NCBI GenBank assembly: GCA_948469375.1
Contig: CAOKLO010000016.1
Span: 1-59,303 of the forward strand
Reading direction: 5' to 3'
From: an uncultured bacterium
GTDB lineage: Bacteria > Bacillota > Clostridia > Oscillospirales > Oscillospiraceae
Length of the DNA: 59,303 bases
Under the pieces are notes generated by a model that saw only the letters and a list, made by a program, of their open reading frames with translations, did not search any database and was not told where the DNA came from. The position numbers and the translations under genes are program-made. This document shows positions 1 through 14,889 of this stretch, piece by piece. The number at the start of each line of letters is the position of its first letter. Position 1 is the stretch's first letter.

Positions 1-455
1 GTAAAAGTTATTTTGCCGGTTGCATTGCCAACGCCCTGATGGAACAGGAGGTGGCTGTCCGCATGACAAACTTTGCACTGATACTGAATGACCTGACCGC
101 CAGCTTTGAGGGCCGGAACGAGTACATAGCCAGATTGTGCCGCGCCCCTCTGCTGATACTGGACGATTTTGGAATGGAGCGTGGGACGGAGTACGGTTTG
201 GAACAGGTCTACAACGTGGTTGACAGCCGTTACCGCAGCCGCAGGCCGCTGATTGTCACCACCAATCTGTCCCTCCAGGACTTGCAGCACCCCCAGGACA
301 CCGCCCATGCCCGTATCTATGACCGCCTGTTGGAGATGTGCGCCCCCATCCGTTTTTCCGGCGAGAACTTCCGCAGGGCAACGGCGCAGGACAAGCTGGC
401 ACGTCTGAAAAATCTGATGGAACCACCAGCCCTCTCCCCTGCCGCAGATGACTAA
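1..455 (+). CDS. DnaC/IstB-like ATP-binding protein (5' end cut by window)
   Basis: The reading frame is open from base 3, so the gene starts before the window. The first two visible codons are K-S, the end of a Walker A (GKS) loop. A Walker B segment LLILDDFG follows about 40 residues later, and VTTN near residue 85 fits a sensor-1 asparagine. This is the AAA+ fold of DnaC/DnaI helicase loaders and IstB; DnaC-like proteins of this kind are standard in conjugative elements, where they probably support element replication. Function is inferred from fold and context. Only about 150 residues are visible; the C-terminus ends with a proline/alanine-rich tail. It lies 250 bases upstream of the recombinase, on the same strand. 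Confidence 0.75.
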   Translation, partial: KSYFAGCIANALMEQEVAVRMTNFALILNDLTASFEGRNEYIARLCRAPLLILDDFGMERGTEYGLEQVYNVVDSRYRSRRPLIVTTNLSLQDLQHPQDTAHARIYDRLLEMCAPIRFSGENFRRATAQDKLARLKNLMEPPALSPAADD

Positions 456-640: not shown

Positions 641-690
641 GTGACAAGCTGTTTCCTCTGTGCTATACTGTAGGCAGGAAACAGCTTGTC
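641..690 (+). promoter_or_regulatory. Recombinase promoter inside a perfect inverted repeat
   Basis: A -35 box GTGACA (641-646) and a -10 box TATACT (664-669, preceded by TG for an extended -10) are 17 bases apart. A 15-base perfect inverted repeat, GACAAGCTGTTTCCT (643-657) and its complement (676-690), flanks the promoter: one arm overlaps the -35 box and the other covers the transcription start. A repressor, or the recombinase itself, bound to both arms would block transcription. The repeat could also be a recombination site or fold as an RNA hairpin at the transcript start. Confidence 0.6.
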
Positions 691-712
691 CTATCTCTGA
701 GGAGATATGACT

Positions 713-2266
713 ATGAAAGCAGCGATCTACTGCCGTTTATCCGAGGAAGATAGAAACAAGCAATTTGAAACCGACGACAGCAACAGCATTCAGAACCAAA
801 AGGCCATGCTGCTGCAATACGCGATGGAACAGGGGTGGGAAGTTTATAACCTTTACAGTGATGATGATTACACAGGTTCAGACCGCAGACGGCCCGAATT
901 TAACCGCTTGCTGGAGGACGCCAAGGCTCACCGCTTTGACATCGTTCTCTGCAAGACCCAATCCCGCTTTACCCGTGAGCTGGAGCTGGTAGAAAAGTAC
1001 ATCCACGGCCTCTTCCCTATCTGGGGCATCCGCTTTGTCAGCATCGTGGACAACGCCGACACCGCCAACAAGGGCAACAAGAAGTCCCGGCAGATCAACG
1101 GGCTGGTGAACGAGTGGTATCTGGAGGATATGTCGGAGAACATCCGCAGCGTCCTCACCAACCGGCGGCAGAATGGTTTTCACATTGGGGCCTTTGCCCT
1201 CTATGGCTACAAAAAAGACCCCGACCAGAAAGGCCATCTTCTCATTGACGAGGAGGCCGCCGCCGTTGTCCGGGAGGTGTTCACCCTCTTTTCCCAAGGC
1301 TACGGCAAGACGGCCATCGCCCGGATGCTCAACGACCGTGGCATCCCCAATCCCACCGAGTACAAGCGGCTCTACGGCCTGCGCTACCAGCAGCCCAAGC
1401 GGAAAAACAGCACCCTTTGGAAGTATTTCGCTATTTCCGATATGCTCACCAACGAAATCTATATCGGGAACATGGTGCAAGGCAAATACGGAAGTGTGTC
1501 CTACAAGACCAAGCAGAATAAGCCACGTCCCCAAAGCGAGTGGTATCGCGTGGAGGGAACCCACGAGGCCATCATTGACCGCCTCCTCTGGAACCGGGTG
1601 CAGTCCATGATCGCGGAGCGGGCCAAGCCCTTTGACTGTGGCACTGTGGGATTGTTCGCCAGGAAAGCAATCTGCGCCAACTGCGGCTATACCATGCGTT
1701 CCTCCAAAAATCGCGGGCGGCACTACCTCCAATGCTCCAACCGCCATGTGGCAAAGGACGCCTGCATCGGCTCTTTCATTTCGGTGGAAAAGCTGGAGCG
1801 GATGGTCATTGACGAGCTGAACCGACTGGCGGCGGCATATCTGGACAAGGACGAGCTGGAGCGGAATATTGAGTTTTGCGAAAATCTGCAAGGGCAGAAA
1901 AAGCAGCTTCTGGACACCCTCGCCGCCTATGAGAAACGAATTGCCGAGTACACCAAGGGTCTGCGGGATTTATATATGGATAAGGTCAAGGGCCTGCTCA
2001 ATGACAGCGACTTCTCCGCCCTCTCCAAGGAGTTTTCTTCCGAGAAATCCCGGCTGGAGCGTGTCCTACTGGACAGCCAGCGGCAGCTGGCGGAGCTGGA
2101 GGACAGGATTGCCGTGGGAGACAACCGAAAGGCTTTGGTGGAGCGGTATGTAAACCTGGAACACTTGACACGGGAAATCGTAGAAATCCTCATCGACCAC
2201 ATCACTGTAGGCAAGCGCATCCCCAAAACGAAGGATGTTCCCATTGAGATACACTGGAACTTTTAG
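713..2266 (+). CDS. Large serine recombinase (TnpX/TndX-like)
   Basis: Site-specific recombinase that would excise and integrate the element. The N-terminal resolvase domain has the catalytic serine in YCRLSEED (Ser10) and the arginines of TQSRFTRELE; a recombinase domain follows (around residues 165-290, with GIPNP and a KNSTLWKYFAISDMLTNEIYIG region), then a zinc ribbon with Cys321, Cys324 and two further cysteines near 341 and 352, and a coiled-coil C-terminus with many E/K/L residues (about 375-465). At 517 aa it has the usual size of the family. The ATG at 713 is preferred to that at 707 because the GAGGAG ribosome-binding site lies about 8 bases before it but only 2 before the other. 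The stop is about 20 bases from the junction with cotJC. Confidence 0.93.
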   Translation: MKAAIYCRLSEEDRNKQFETDDSNSIQNQKAMLLQYAMEQGWEVYNLYSDDDYTGSDRRRPEFNRLLEDAKAHRFDIVLCKTQSRFTRELELVEKYIHGLFPIWGIRFVSIVDNADTANKGNKKSRQINGLVNEWYLEDMSENIRSVLTNRRQNGFHIGAFALYGYKKDPDQKGHLLIDEEAAAVVREVFTLFSQGYGKTAIARMLNDRGIPNPTEYKRLYGLRYQQPKRKNSTLWKYFAISDMLTNEIYIGNMVQGKYGSVSYKTKQNKPRPQSEWYRVEGTHEAIIDRLLWNRVQSMIAERAKPFDCGTVGLFARKAICANCGYTMRSSKNRGRHYLQCSNRHVAKDACIGSFISVEKLERMVIDELNRLAAAYLDKDELERNIEFCENLQGQKKQLLDTLAAYEKRIAEYTKGLRDLYMDKVKGLLNDSDFSALSKEFSSEKSRLERVLLDSQRQLAELEDRIAVGDNRKALVERYVNLEHLTREIVEILIDHITVGKRIPKTKDVPIEIHWNF

Positions 2267-2283
2267 CCACAGGTTGCACTTTC

Positions 2284-2487
2284 GTGATTGCACCAGAACA
2301 AAAGGCCCGCCTCACTTACGATAACATCCTGCGCTTGTCCGACGATCCGGATGTGAGCAACGTTATCCGCTTCCTGCGGGAACGAGAAATCGTCCATTTC
2401 CAACGTTTTGGCGAAGCAATCGCCCTAGCCAAGGAACGGTTGGATCAAAAGAACGTCTACTTTACCAACCCTGCTTTTGACAAATAA
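2284..2487 (+). pseudogene. cotJC: 3' remnant of cotJC, interrupted by the element
   Basis: The 66 or so residues match the C-terminal third of CotJC (spore coat, manganese-catalase family): EQKARLTYDNIL, SDDPDV, RFLREREIVHFQRFGEA and the NPAFD end are characteristic. Known CotJC proteins are about 190 aa and have an ED-IAAEEKAR segment where this sequence begins with IAPEQKAR, so roughly 125 N-terminal residues are missing. The in-frame GTG has no ribosome-binding site and the bases before it (from about 2267 to 2283) look like element DNA. The gene was therefore split by the insertion; its 5' part should lie beyond the other end of the element. Excision would restore it. Confidence 0.85.
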
Positions 2488-11561: not shown

Positions 11562-11586
11562 TTTTGATACTGCTCTCCTTCCACTG

Positions 11587-12966
11587 TCATTTCAGCGCAT
11601 TCACCAATTCCTTGAATCTGTTGCCCCGCTCTTCAAAGTTTTTGAACCGGTCAAAGGACGCGCTGGCGGGAGACATGATAACCACATCTCCCGGCCCGGC
11701 CAATCTCTGCGCCTGCTCTACCGCCTCCTTCAGGTCGGCGCAGTCATAGACGGCGGGCTGTCCCTCCCGATATCCAGGGGCAACCAGAGCAGCCGCTTTA
11801 ATCTTTTCTGCGGTATCCCCAGTCAAAAGAAGAACCTTGACGTGCTCCACAATCTCCGGCCCCAATACGTCATAAGGAATGTGCTTATCATAGCCGCCCG
11901 CAATGAGAATGACCTTCTGGGCGAAAGACCTCAGCCCCGCGATGGTCCGGCTGGGGCTGGAGGCAATGGAGTCGTTATAATAACGCACCCCATTCAGCTC
12001 CCGCACCAGCTCGATTCGATGCTCCACGCCGCCAAAGGTACGGGCATACTCCCGGATCACCTCATCAGGCACCAGCCCATCCACCGCCGCAATGGCTGCC
12101 ATGTAATTCTCCAGATTGTGCAGGCCGGGCAAAAGAATATCGTCGCGGGTCAGCACCGGCCTTCCTCCACAATACACCGTTTTGTCCTTCAAGCAGACCC
12201 CGCCGGACAGCGCCTTTCTCCGGCTGAATAGTGTAACCGCTCCCCTGGCCTGAGCCGCAAAGCCTGCCGTGATTTCGTTGTCCGCATTGAGCACCAGCCG
12301 ATCGCCGGAATCCTGATAGGCAAAAATGTTCCGTTTGGCGGCCACATACTCCTCCATATCCTTGTGTACATCCAGATGGTTGGGCGCCAGATTGGTAACC
12401 ACCGCAATGCCGGGACTCTGCCGTACCGTCATCAGCTGGAAGGAGGACAGCTCCAGCACCACCATATCGTCCGGGCGGATATCGTCTACCTGACACAGCA
12501 GAGGATGGCCGATATTGCCGCCGACAAAGGTACGGTAGCCCGCCGCCTTCAACAGTCCCGCAATGATGGTTGTGGTGGTGGTCTTGCCGTCGGACCCGGT
12601 CACCGCCACCATGCGGCAGGGGCACAGGTCCAAAAACGCTTCCATCTCCGATGTGAGCTCCGCTCCCGCCGCCACGGCCCTCTCAATCTGGGGCACATCC
12701 GGCCTCAAGCCTGGTGTGCGGAAAACCACATCCGCCCCATCCAGATGGTCCAGGTAATCCGGCCCCAGGGCGGCGGTCAGCCCCCGGCGTTCCAGCGTCT
12801 CAATGAGGCCGTTGAACTCCTCCCGCCGCCGCTTATCGCATACCAGCACCTTCACGCCCGCGCCCAGCAAGCCCTCTACCAGCGGCCGGTTGGACACACC
12901 CAGGCCGATCACCGCCACCTTTTTCCCCTTCAGGGAGTTAAAATATTCTTTCAGCGCCGATTCCAT
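11587..12966 (-). CDS. murD: UDP-N-acetylmuramoyl-L-alanine-D-glutamate ligase MurD
   Basis: Adds D-glutamate to UDP-MurNAc-L-Ala in the cytoplasmic phase of peptidoglycan synthesis. The N-terminal Rossmann-like domain starts GKKVAVIGLGVSNRPL, the ATP loop is VTGSDGKTTTTTII, and the C-terminal domain has the Mur ligase HRIELV and YNDSIASSPSRT motifs. The open frame extends to 13047, but a GGAGGTGG ribosome-binding site directly precedes the ATG at 12966 (MESALKEYF), giving 459 aa, typical of MurD. It is transcribed from its own promoter at 13036-13064 leftward, divergent from rnpB, and is far from any other cell-division cluster gene in this window. Confidence 0.95.
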   Translation of the reverse strand: MESALKEYFNSLKGKKVAVIGLGVSNRPLVEGLLGAGVKVLVCDKRRREEFNGLIETLERRGLTAALGPDYLDHLDGADVVFRTPGLRPDVPQIERAVAAGAELTSEMEAFLDLCPCRMVAVTGSDGKTTTTTIIAGLLKAAGYRTFVGGNIGHPLLCQVDDIRPDDMVVLELSSFQLMTVRQSPGIAVVTNLAPNHLDVHKDMEEYVAAKRNIFAYQDSGDRLVLNADNEITAGFAAQARGAVTLFSRRKALSGGVCLKDKTVYCGGRPVLTRDDILLPGLHNLENYMAAIAAVDGLVPDEVIREYARTFGGVEHRIELVRELNGVRYYNDSIASSPSRTIAGLRSFAQKVILIAGGYDKHIPYDVLGPEIVEHVKVLLLTGDTAEKIKAAALVAPGYREGQPAVYDCADLKEAVEQAQRLAGPGDVVIMSPASASFDRFKNFEERGNRFKELVNALK

Positions 12967-13035
12967 CGGTATCCCCACCTCCATGCACTCGATTTCGCTC
13001 TTTCGTATCCCAAAGGTGATTTCACATATTGATGT

Positions 13036-13064
13036 ATTATACCCCATTCAAATCCATTTGACAA
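13036..13064 (-). promoter_or_regulatory. murD promoter
   Basis: On the minus strand TTGTCA (13064-13059) and TATAAT (13041-13036) are separated by exactly 17 bases. Its -35 box shares five bases with the -35 box of the opposite rnpB promoter. Confidence 0.8.
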
Positions 13065-13086
13065 TCACCTAAAGATGAAGTACAAT
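13058..13086 (+). promoter_or_regulatory. rnpB promoter
   Basis: TTGACA (13058-13063), a 17-base spacer, and TACAAT (13081-13086) place the start at about 13092, exactly where the RNase P RNA begins. The -35 box overlaps the murD -35 box on the other strand. Confidence 0.82.
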
Positions 13087-13091
13087 CAAAA

Positions 13092-13450
13092 TTGCAAGTG
13101 CGCTGGACAGCCGCGCGGCCAGGCCGAAAGGCCGTCCGTGAGGAAAGTCCGGGCTCCACAGGGCAAGGATAACGGGTAACACCCGCCGGGGGCGACCCTA
13201 GGAAAAGTGCAACAGAAATAGACTACCCATTCCGGAAACGGGGAGGGAAAAGGTGGAAAGGCGAGGTAAGAGCTCACCCAATGGCGTGCCAAGCGCCCAT
13301 TGCTGTAAACTCTATCCGGAGCAACGCCGTGGGAACACAACAGACCGGCCCGGTCGTGTTCAGGAGGCGGCTGGAGCGCACCGGCAACGGTGCGCCTAGA
13401 TAGATGGCTGTCTTAAATGACAGAACCCGGCTTACAGGCTCACTTGCACC
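13092..13450 (+). ncRNA. rnpB: RNase P RNA
   Basis: The catalytic RNA of RNase P, which removes 5' leaders from tRNA precursors. The universally conserved GAGGAAAGTCCGGGCTCC block lies at about 13139-13157, and the partner block ACAGAACCCGGCTTACAG near the 3' end completes helix P4. The ends TTGCAAGTG and CACTTGCA pair to form P1. An AACGGTGCGCC hairpin and a GGAGGCGGCTGGAG segment also fit. The length of about 360 bases and the helix order suggest the common ancestral (type A-like) architecture rather than the Bacillus type B; that assignment needs a covariance model. Confidence 0.95.
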
Positions 13451-13453
13451 AGA

Positions 13454-13488
13454 CGGGGGACTCCGGCAGGGGTCCTCCGTTTTCTTGT
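13454..13488 (+). terminator. Terminator of rnpB
   Basis: A GC-rich stem between about 13454 and 13483 (CGGGGGA with TCCTCCG) is followed by TTTTCTT, just after the RNase P RNA 3' end. Confidence 0.65.
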
Positions 13489-13543
13489 CCAACTTAGCCT
13501 ACTATGCAACCTTTATGTCCGCAATTTCTTTTTCTTTTATCCG

Positions 13544-13572
13544 TTGCGTTCCCTCTTTTAATACTATATAAT
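13544..13572 (+). promoter_or_regulatory. Promoter of the pyr operon
   Basis: TTGCGT (13544-13549), a 17-base spacer, then a perfect TATAAT (13567-13572). The leader to the pyrC start is only about 36 bases, too short for a PyrR attenuator, so any pyrimidine control must act in another way. Confidence 0.72.
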
Positions 13573-13614
13573 GTACAAAAGCTTTTTATACAATACAGTT
13601 GGGGGGATCTCCTC

Positions 13615-14889
13615 TTGAGACTTTTGATTCGAGGCGGACGGGCCGTTGACCCTGCCCGCGGCGTCGACGACACCCTGGATATTTTGATCGATGAAGGCAG
13701 AATTGTCCAACTGGGCAAGCATTTAGAAACAGACGGCGCCCAGGCTTTAGACGCCTCCGGATTGGCAGTCGCTCCCGGGCTGGTGGACATGCACGTCCAT
13801 TTGCGGGAGCCGGGATTTGAGGCCAAGGAGACGGTATCCACAGGCTGCGCCGCCGCCGCCCGAGGCGGCGTAACCACGCTGGTGGCCATGCCCAACACCC
13901 GGCCTGTTACAGACTGCCCGGAAATTGTAACGCTTGTGCGTGACAGGGCCGCTCCCACCGGAGTGAACGTCCTCCCCGCCGGCGCAGTCACCACCGGACA
14001 AGGTGGCCGGCAGCTCACTGACTTTGCTGCTCTGAAAGCAGCGGGCGTCCCTGCTCTCACCGATGACGGCGTCCCCATCCAGAACCTGGCCCTGCTCCGG
14101 CAGGCTATGCTTTGGGCAAAGGAACTGGGCCTCCCTCTCCTGGACCACTGTGAGGACCGGGATATGGTGCAGAATTTTGCGGTCAATGAGGGAAGAATCT
14201 CCGCTCAGCTGGGCCTCCCTGGCCGCCCCGCCATTGCGGAGGAGCTTCAAATCATGCGGGATGTCATGCTGGCGGAGGAGACCGGAGCCCACGTCCACAT
14301 CTGCCACATCTCCACCGGCAAAGGGGTAGACATCGTCCGTCAGGCCAAGGCGAGGGGCATCCATATCACCTGCGAGACCTGCCCCCAATACTTCTCGCTC
14401 ACAGAGGACGAGGTGCTCCATCAGGGGACCATGGCACGGGTCAACCCGCCTCTGCGGACCCCGGCGGATATGGAGGCCATTCGGGCGGGCCTTGTCGACG
14501 GCACCATCGACGCCATTGTCACCGACCACGCTCCCCACACTGCCGAGGAAAAGTCTAAACCCCTGCCAGACGCTCCCAGCGGTATGGTGGGACTGGAGAC
14601 CTCCCTGGCGTTGGCCCTCACCGGGCTGTACCACGGCGGGCTTCTCCCCCTGAGCCGGGTGCTGGCGCTGATGTCCTCTTCCCCCGCCGCCCTGCTTGGG
14701 CTGGACAAGGGAACGCTGGACCTGGGCCGGGATGCCGACCTGGTCCTCTTTGACCCAAATCAGGAGTGGACTGTCGACAAAAACCAATTCGCATCCAAAG
14801 GCCGCAACACCCCCTTCCACGGCCGGACCATGAGGGGAAAAGTTAAATACACCATTTCCCGGGGAAACATCATTTATATGGAGGGCTGA
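13615..14889 (+). CDS. pyrC: Dihydroorotase PyrC
   Basis: Cyclises carbamoyl-aspartate to dihydroorotate, the third step of pyrimidine synthesis. The zinc-binding HVHLRE (His60, His62) lies after a small beta domain, HICHIST gives further metal histidines, and VTDHAPH carries the catalytic aspartate. The frame is open from 13504, but that N-terminus is AT-rich and precedes the likely transcription start; a TTG at 13615 has a GGGGGGA ribosome-binding site and yields MRLLIRGGRA and 424 aa, typical of the AllB/PyrC class I family. It is the first gene of the pyr operon, 3 bases before pyrF. Confidence 0.94.
   Translation: MRLLIRGGRAVDPARGVDDTLDILIDEGRIVQLGKHLETDGAQALDASGLAVAPGLVDMHVHLREPGFEAKETVSTGCAAAARGGVTTLVAMPNTRPVTDCPEIVTLVRDRAAPTGVNVLPAGAVTTGQGGRQLTDFAALKAAGVPALTDDGVPIQNLALLRQAMLWAKELGLPLLDHCEDRDMVQNFAVNEGRISAQLGLPGRPAIAEELQIMRDVMLAEETGAHVHICHISTGKGVDIVRQAKARGIHITCETCPQYFSLTEDEVLHQGTMARVNPPLRTPADMEAIRAGLVDGTIDAIVTDHAPHTAEEKSKPLPDAPSGMVGLETSLALALTGLYHGGLLPLSRVLALMSSSPAALLGLDKGTLDLGRDADLVLFDPNQEWTVDKNQFASKGRNTPFHGRTMRGKVKYTISRGNIIYMEG

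Follow-up and report, generated by a model that had tools for sequence, protein, structure and literature searches.

The spore-coat gene cotJC of gut Clostridia as an insertion site for elements carrying serine recombinases

A spore-coat gene of which only the last third remains poses the question of whether it is a relic, or a gene that can be made whole when it is needed. Such a remnant occurs in the window analysed here, a stretch of 59,303 nucleotides from an uncultured Oscillospiraceae bacterium, in which a large serine recombinase gene is followed by the end of cotJC. The features at issue lie close to the left edge of the window:

3-455, plus strand: 3' part of an IstB/DnaC-like ATPase gene, its 5' end past the contig edge (PF01695, E 4.9e-10; an IstB-type gene likewise precedes the recombinase at locus L058, discussed below)
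641-669, plus strand: sigma-A-like promoter of the recombinase, GTGACA - 17 - TATACT (from the sequence; similar ones stand upstream of many relatives)
643-690, no strand: perfect 15-bp inverted repeat (643-657 / 676-690) over the promoter, a possible operator (from the sequence)
707-2266, plus strand: large serine recombinase of 519 aa, with Resolvase, Recombinase, Zn_ribbon_recom and DUF4368 domains (open reading frame and domain matches)
2273-2295, no strand: right arm of the element's attachment site (alike in the right junctions of relatives; inverted repeat of the left arm on contig C59)
2296-2297, no strand: GA core common to both junctions, the first two bases of the Glu-136 codon (junction sequences of the window, C59 and relatives)
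2296-2487, plus strand: 3' third of cotJC from Glu-136 to the end, stop at 2485-2487 (PF05067; joined protein against an intact relative)

The earlier note on this DNA had recognised the C-terminal third of CotJC, in frame and 3' of a serine recombinase gene, and held that the gene was split, with its N-terminal two thirds gone. Both points are borne out. The Pfam profile PF05067 (Mn_catalase) matches the window translation (E 3e-11, profile positions 147-198), and the frame is open as far as the stop, although the listed start of this frame, a GTG at 2284, falls in element DNA, cotJC proper being 2296-2487. The missing 5' two thirds, which the note had suggested looking for, are present at the end of another contig, C59, of the same genome. 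This assembly (G000) comprises 143 contigs, of which the window is contig 16, with a listed completeness of 91.6% and contamination of 6.24%. A profile search of it at E values up to 10 returned two Mn_catalase matches only, one in the window (2287-2442, profile positions 147-198) and one on C59 (50-457, minus strand, profile positions 1-150), with complementary breakpoints, and found no second copy of cotJC. On C59, a gene that we take from its position and sequence to be cotJB-like is followed by cotJC running to ...EDMAA, after which the last 49 bases of the contig depart from the consensus. The window lacks the 5' half because on its left side the contig ends while still within the element, through which C59 and the window would be joined. 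A sporulation gene is split here by an element with its own site-specific recombinase. Past the cotJC stop, at 2505-2540, the window carries a terminator-like sequence (GGCCCGCCCC...GGGGCGGGCC then T).

The two junctions share a short core. That on C59 reads ...GATATGGCAGCG-GA-TGGGG and that in the window ...GATTGCACCA-GA-ACAAAAGG, with GGCAGCG-GA-TGGGGCGATGGCG as the left junction and GATTGCACCA-GA-ACAAAAGGCC as the right. Among relatives, the right arm approximates to GTTGTTCTTATATGATTGCA(G/C)CA and the left arm to TGG(T/G)GCAATNNTATAAGAACAAC, so that GA is flanked by a pair of inverted arms; those of the window's own element pair at 17 of 25 positions, which none of 2000 shuffles equalled. 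The earlier note had the CotJC match begin at about 2287, at a GA dinucleotide; the GA core is real, but it lies at 2296-2297, the GA at 2287 being part of the element's right arm. When C59 and the window are joined at the core, an in-frame cotJC of 198 codons results, the protein of which can be aligned from end to end with an intact CotJC from the same genus (G010; 94% identity), the comparison that the note had proposed. The note had also called for relatives with an empty site, and the element-free locus of G010 (L006), which is intact across the join, is one on this alignment: its sequence is matched by C59 as far as base 1907, and by the window from base 1900 onwards. Hence, as far as sequence can tell, recombination at the shared core would restore the frame.

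This junction recurs. Scanning species genomes with the window recombinase gave 406 relatives, and among the best 80 of these (78-99% identity) cotJC is broken at codon 136 in 74. The 3' piece lies within 257 nt on the same strand at 52 of the 80 loci, and is also present at five more (L074, L085, L096, L097, L102), where the alignment overran the junction. At another 11 the element is inverted and the 5' piece lies on the other strand, and at six the break at codon 136 is elsewhere in the locus (L081, L106, L107, L122, L123, L128). No cotJC piece was found at six of the 80 (L064, L067, L070, L075, L103, L131): the right arm is joined to other DNA in L070 and L103, L075 has an arm-to-arm junction instead, and neither kind of junction is seen in L064, L067 or L131, where the contig of L131 ends 89 nt after the recombinase. 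The element is reversed in L069, L071, L072, L073, L077, L087, L099, L101, L111, L118 and L129; the direction of the GA core within cotJC is nevertheless unchanged, and therefore the reversed element's own core reads TC. Near-palindromic arms combined with an altered core would explain such a flip. Separately, L081 of Parablautia intestinalis (11583-14233) has two tandem elements in cotJC with an arm-to-arm junction between them, the second recombinase being frame-broken. The corresponding junction of L075 (1565-1592) is close to a contig end in a metagenome assembly (G337) that also contains an intact cotJC and three pieces, possibly a mixture of excised and inserted forms, or of strains. Neither junction was accepted as an instance of excision; both lie inside assemblies, and so represent tandem insertion or an unresolved circle.

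Codon 136 is not the only site. When 250 family genomes were searched with one recombinase per site (E up to 1e-80), a cotJC piece was found within 1.5 kb of the site-65 recombinase in 25 of the best 30 of 49 places, and of the site-32 recombinase in 22 of 24. Three changes, the minimum possible, suffice to explain the four site labels on a tree of 72 recombinases, against 30.3 when shuffled. These 72 were drawn from 139 by dropping those more than 300 nt from a break or shorter than 380 aa, and by thinning site 136 to every second; the tree includes one duplicate pair, several long branches, and some joins on long branches. As the site-136 members were mostly chosen by similarity to the window recombinase (L214 and L215 by place), the informative part consists of the site-65, site-32 and site-170 recombinases, which were picked by place; these also sort by site, with the site-65 recombinases forming two groups. 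The window's own genome encodes a 45% relative of the site-65 recombinase on contig 55 (L336, 3044-4669), with no cotJC piece within 1.5 kb. L055 (1988-3523), L058 (12892-14436) and L200 (5144-6301) show a fourth site, near codon 176, which has a recombinase next to it or close by and lies 3' of another break, at site 136 or site 65, in that cotJC.

The positions of these sites follow a pattern. The metal ligands of Mn-catalase are Glu35, Glu66, His69, Glu148 and His181, which by motif correspond to Glu35, Glu65, His68, Glu136 and His169 of CotJC. The breaks fall three to five residues before Glu35, at codons 62-65, inside the Glu136 codon, and about seven residues after His169. On this numbering, all the insertion sites are at or near metal-ligand motifs as judged from sequence, the likely reason being that the recombinases settle on well conserved DNA.

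Split copies are common in the genus and beyond it. A cotJC match is present in 37 of 42 genomes sampled from the genus, as one full-length frame in 12, and as two to four pieces in 20, with five assigned to neither class (G027, which has a contig break, and G029, G037, G038 and G040). The breaks recur near codons 32, 65, 136 and 170-176; G014, G020 and G024 have three pieces each and G034 four, hence three insertions. Across a family sample of 300 genomes at least 90% complete, PF05067 matched in 266, of which 86 (seven in the genus, 79 outside) are without a full-length hit, where a genome with no match better than E 1e-45 counted as having none, full-length matches scored 1e-48 or better, and the table was read by eye. 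A second search of the 79 gave at least two matches in 69, bringing the genomes with at least two partial matches to 76 of the 86. Among the rows listed, the match ends cluster at profile positions 32/28, 64-66/59-63 and 150-152/146-148, and G287 has four pieces. At one of the loci from the recombinase searches (L310), a listed match that appeared nearly complete (6-197) in fact breaks near codon 29, its first residues being unrelated sequence that the alignment overran. PF05067 also matches in 17 of the 18 genomes behind named loci. SpoIVA was searched for in 77 genomes, cotJC being split in 65 of them and intact in 12, and was found in all but one, G161, which has cotJC split.

Could such breaks be artefacts of assembly or binning? 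Many of the host genomes are metagenome assemblies, the two halves in G000 are on different contigs, and G027 is just such a case, in which both pieces are at contig ends and which was therefore rejected as split. However, cotJC is also split in G108 and G272, each of which is a single contig, in other genomes where the pieces share a contig, and in strain-titled genomes. Of the last, those split without a full-length copy are Flintibacter muris DSM 110149, Anaerotignum lactatifermentans DSM 14214, Parablautia intestinalis D8-82, Anaerotruncus colihominis JM4-15, Roseburia faecis M72, Pseudoflavonifractor sp. 524-17, Blautia sp. An249 (three pieces on one contig) and Caproiciproducens galactitolivorans YR-4 (three pieces). 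The split at the same cotJC sites thus extends to named strains of Lachnospiraceae, Anaerotignum and Caproiciproducens, and core and arms recur across loci. For the phenomenon as a whole an artefact is refuted, and as an explanation has next to no credibility.

Scarcely more plausible is the proposal that the halves are separate polypeptides that assemble into one enzyme, making excision needless. Both halves have open frames, and an in-frame GTG stands upstream of the 3' half, but the bases just 5' of the 3' piece are element DNA that varies between loci. Moreover, breaks at four places and up to four pieces (G034, G287) would each require a working split protein, and the site-136 break lies, on the ligand numbering above, inside a ligand codon.

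The window recombinase has the Resolvase, Recombinase and zinc ribbon domains that make up the large serine recombinase set. Its best match among solved structures is the TnpX catalytic domain (E 5e-13), and it is about 31% identical to records annotated as TndX, such that the note's comparison with the TnpX/TndX type stands at the level of the family and no closer. The recombinase of L058, where both cotJC parts are present, is 97% identical to that of the window, and its element encodes a MatE transporter, a cytidylate-kinase-like gene, a MobA/MobL relaxase, Cys_rich_VLP, RepA_N, an IstB/DnaC-like gene and the recombinase. An integrative mobilizable element is marked by a relaxase and an integrase that both lie between defined ends. 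Since the right end of the window has the last two genes of L058, the window element is probably built on the same plan, and so probably an integrative mobilizable element too, the plan being evident in L058 and extrapolated to the window. Other cargoes differ. Elements of about 3 kb in three species (L198, L199, L197) hold little beyond a pyrimidine nucleoside phosphorylase-like gene and their recombinase (domain matches in G149, aligned open reading frames in G108 and G208), and so appear from their sequences to keep a metabolic gene within a split coat gene. Another small element has, besides its recombinase, a zinc alcohol dehydrogenase and a LysR regulator (domain matches in G077, alignment in G169), that of L060 an ABC-transporter/two-component-like set (names by eye), and among IMG/VR relatives of the recombinase, in records of up to 69 kb, six of ten have a cotJC piece.

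Mobile elements might use cotJC merely as a dispensable safe site, the gene being dead while occupied and any signature of selection a leftover from before the insertion. The relaxase and RepA_N of L058, the cargo of L060 and the large IMG/VR records are in keeping with this, as are the arm-to-arm junctions of L075 and L081, elements that are not co-linear between G015 and G018, and the description, in the available text of PMC11222575, of C. difficile cotCB and cotD mutants that still form coats. A dead gene would drift, however, and this one has not. Nine species pairs with split cotJC were compared by NG86 counts over codons outside the junction (120 codons only for G007/G008), of which G015/G018 was dropped and G108/G208 not counted. 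The remaining seven gave the following values, with dS above 1 in three of them:

G077/G169: dS 0.54, dN/dS 0.005
G095/G225: dS 1.48, dN/dS 0.043
G235/G157: dS 0.74, dN/dS 0.022
G149/G208: dS 0.65, dN/dS 0.028
G108/G149: dS 1.30, dN/dS 0.082
G002/G003: dS 1.29, dN/dS 0.014
G007/G008: dS 0.20, dN/dS 0.036

No stops were found in the aligned cotJC codons of these seven pairs or of the 37 genus genomes; an apparent stop in G005 is past the break in element DNA, and those in G002, G016 and G022 vanished on realignment, which ends at the break. With dN/dS of 0.005-0.08, the gene behaves, on this indirect measure, as one still functional in the lineages of these seven pairs. The elements are co-linear over their whole length in G077/G169 and nearly so in G235/G157 and G149/G208, while in G095/G225, G007/G008, G108/G149 and G002/G003 they align in blocks only, in the same order. 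Vertical inheritance was rejected for the site-65 elements of G015/G018 (about 23 kb each), which align in patches that are not co-linear, and therefore have turned over or diverged. In G077/G169, dS is 0.58 and 0.38 for the two cotJC halves and 0.90, 0.52 and 0.57 for the three main element genes, similar values, in line with joint inheritance of gene and element. Across the genus, the pairwise median dN/dS (at least 100 codons, dS 0.1-1.2) is 0.105 where both copies are split (57 of 210 pairs passing the filter, with G027 among the 21 genomes) and 0.143 where both are intact (52 of 66 pairs), hence splitting brings no visible relaxation of selection. Codon comparison thus shows split cotJC to be under strong purifying selection in species pairs that share elements. 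Since gene and element diverged together in several pairs, such as G077/G169, with dN/dS of the gene near zero, a merely dispensable site is unlikely, if less so than the two preceding alternatives.

The reading that we hold with fair confidence is instead that the element was inserted at Glu-136 of cotJC, and is cut out by its recombinase in the sporulating mother cell to rebuild the gene. The large serine recombinase would have inserted the element by site-specific recombination at the Glu-136 codon, leaving the 5' part on C59 and the 3' part in the window with the element between. Recombination of its ends at the GA core would then rebuild the uninterrupted 198-codon gene, as the joining of the two contigs illustrates. 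Strong purifying selection on the gene while split implies that the element is removed where CotJC is needed, and excision by the adjacent recombinase, the simplest means of making cotJC whole, is the most likely one. In the likeliest arrangement, as in the skin element of C. difficile, a sigma-A promoter would drive the recombinase gene during growth, with excision set off in sporulation by a directionality factor specific to the mother cell; as the mother cell is terminal, the germ line would keep the element.

The promoters fit this arrangement in part. Sigma-A-like promoters with at most two mismatches precede 45 of 70 site-136 recombinases, against a shuffled mean of 3.3, and the inverted repeat recurs at the same place in many relatives (by eye). 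Sigma-E and sigma-K promoters were each found in one of these 70 upstream regions, with no enrichment over shuffled means of 4.0 and 0.8, and were rejected as too few to claim. Among 22 site-65 upstream regions no clear promoter was seen, with sigma-A in none, sigma-K in none, and sigma-E in two (shuffled mean 0.1, maximum 2); among only five for site 32, sigma-A and sigma-E were found once each. The absence of sigma-E or sigma-K enrichment at site 136, and of sigma-A at site 65, counts against the mechanism, as do hosts that retain an intact copy beside the pieces (G336, G337, G338) and the incompleteness of the element in G000, and many elements look mobile, so that some insertions may be recent and without developmental meaning. 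No directionality factor was identified for the cotJC elements, nor did the data examined contain an excised circle or a rebuilt gene. One pattern search of IMG/VR for the attP junction gave two hits (L135, L136), both without the left arm and with the same surrounding sequence; they were set aside as chance, the reading frames of L136 being, by eye, those of an unrelated phage.

More broadly, we lean towards viewing cotJC of gut Clostridia as a dedicated docking gene, with four sets of sites at or beside the ligand motifs, each owned by one or more recombinase lineages. The mother cell would then have to excise every element to rebuild the coat catalase, while elements of all kinds, whether mobilizable, larger and mobile, or small and metabolic, would pass through growth without cost to the spore, some of them vertically inherited and near-permanent. 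Gene-intervening elements are known in sigK, spsM, gerE and yabG, and rebuilding of sporulation genes by excision from single cases; in cotJC it is apparently common. Its extent appears new: a single gene offers four recombinase-specific sites and can hold as many as three elements together, and about 30% of the sampled family is affected. Among the literature matches listed, which covered few subscription journals, no elements in cotJC were mentioned beyond a note on the neighbour of phage phi027. If excision is developmental, these loci form a natural series of sites and recombinases, from single to triple insertions and from mobile to vertically inherited elements, through which one could ask how a terminal cell fate tames mobile elements. 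They also yield several sets of recombinases and attachment sites with a narrow target. Surveys of gut spore-formers may mis-score cotJC, and at least once spoIVA, as lost. In G234, spoIVA is split after EHSTIGV, and a serine-recombinase-like reading frame (by eye) reaches its 3' part; the two parts (L331, 1001-1489; L332, 3184-5118; contig 20, 235800-241500 and 484500-490800) share a contig and a direction but are separated by about 252 kb, reflecting either a second sporulation gene as target or a large rearrangement. A split spoIVA in G149 was rejected as an assembly break, both pieces ending at contig ends.

Among known systems, the large resolvases TndX and TnpX (Tn5397 and Tn4451 type) belong to the same recombinase superfamily, and use a GA core as the cotJC elements do. 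However, the window recombinase is only about 31% identical to TndX records, and its relatives are in cotJC at 74 of the best 80 loci. Matches to it occur in 682 phage records, each below 60% identity at its best place, and a 70.7% relative is encoded in one unannotated plasmid record of Subdoligranulum, but none approaches the 78-99% of the cotJC-bound loci. In C. difficile R20291, the attR of prophage phi027 adjoins CDR20291_1465, a CotJC homolog, according to the available text of PMC11222575; the prophage end is likewise beside such a gene, but is described as adjacent to it rather than splitting it, and phage excision is described as spontaneous. Closer is the C. difficile skin element, which splits sigK and, in the portion of PMC5025042 consulted, has the recombinase CD1231, expressed during growth under a sigma-A promoter, and the sigma-E-controlled directionality factor CD1234, with excision rebuilding sigK. 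There too a large serine recombinase gene is beside the 3' part of a split mother-cell gene, but the target is a sigma factor, whereas cotJC is a coat enzyme gene with four separate sites. Inserted elements also split sporulation genes in the cases of gin in gerE of B. cereus (a serine recombinase and no phage genes, in the excerpts of PMC5595907), SPbeta in spsM (a serine recombinase) and yin in yabG. Each of these reports, as far as the excerpts extend, concerns one element and one gene, whereas cotJC hosts up to three elements and several recombinase lineages.
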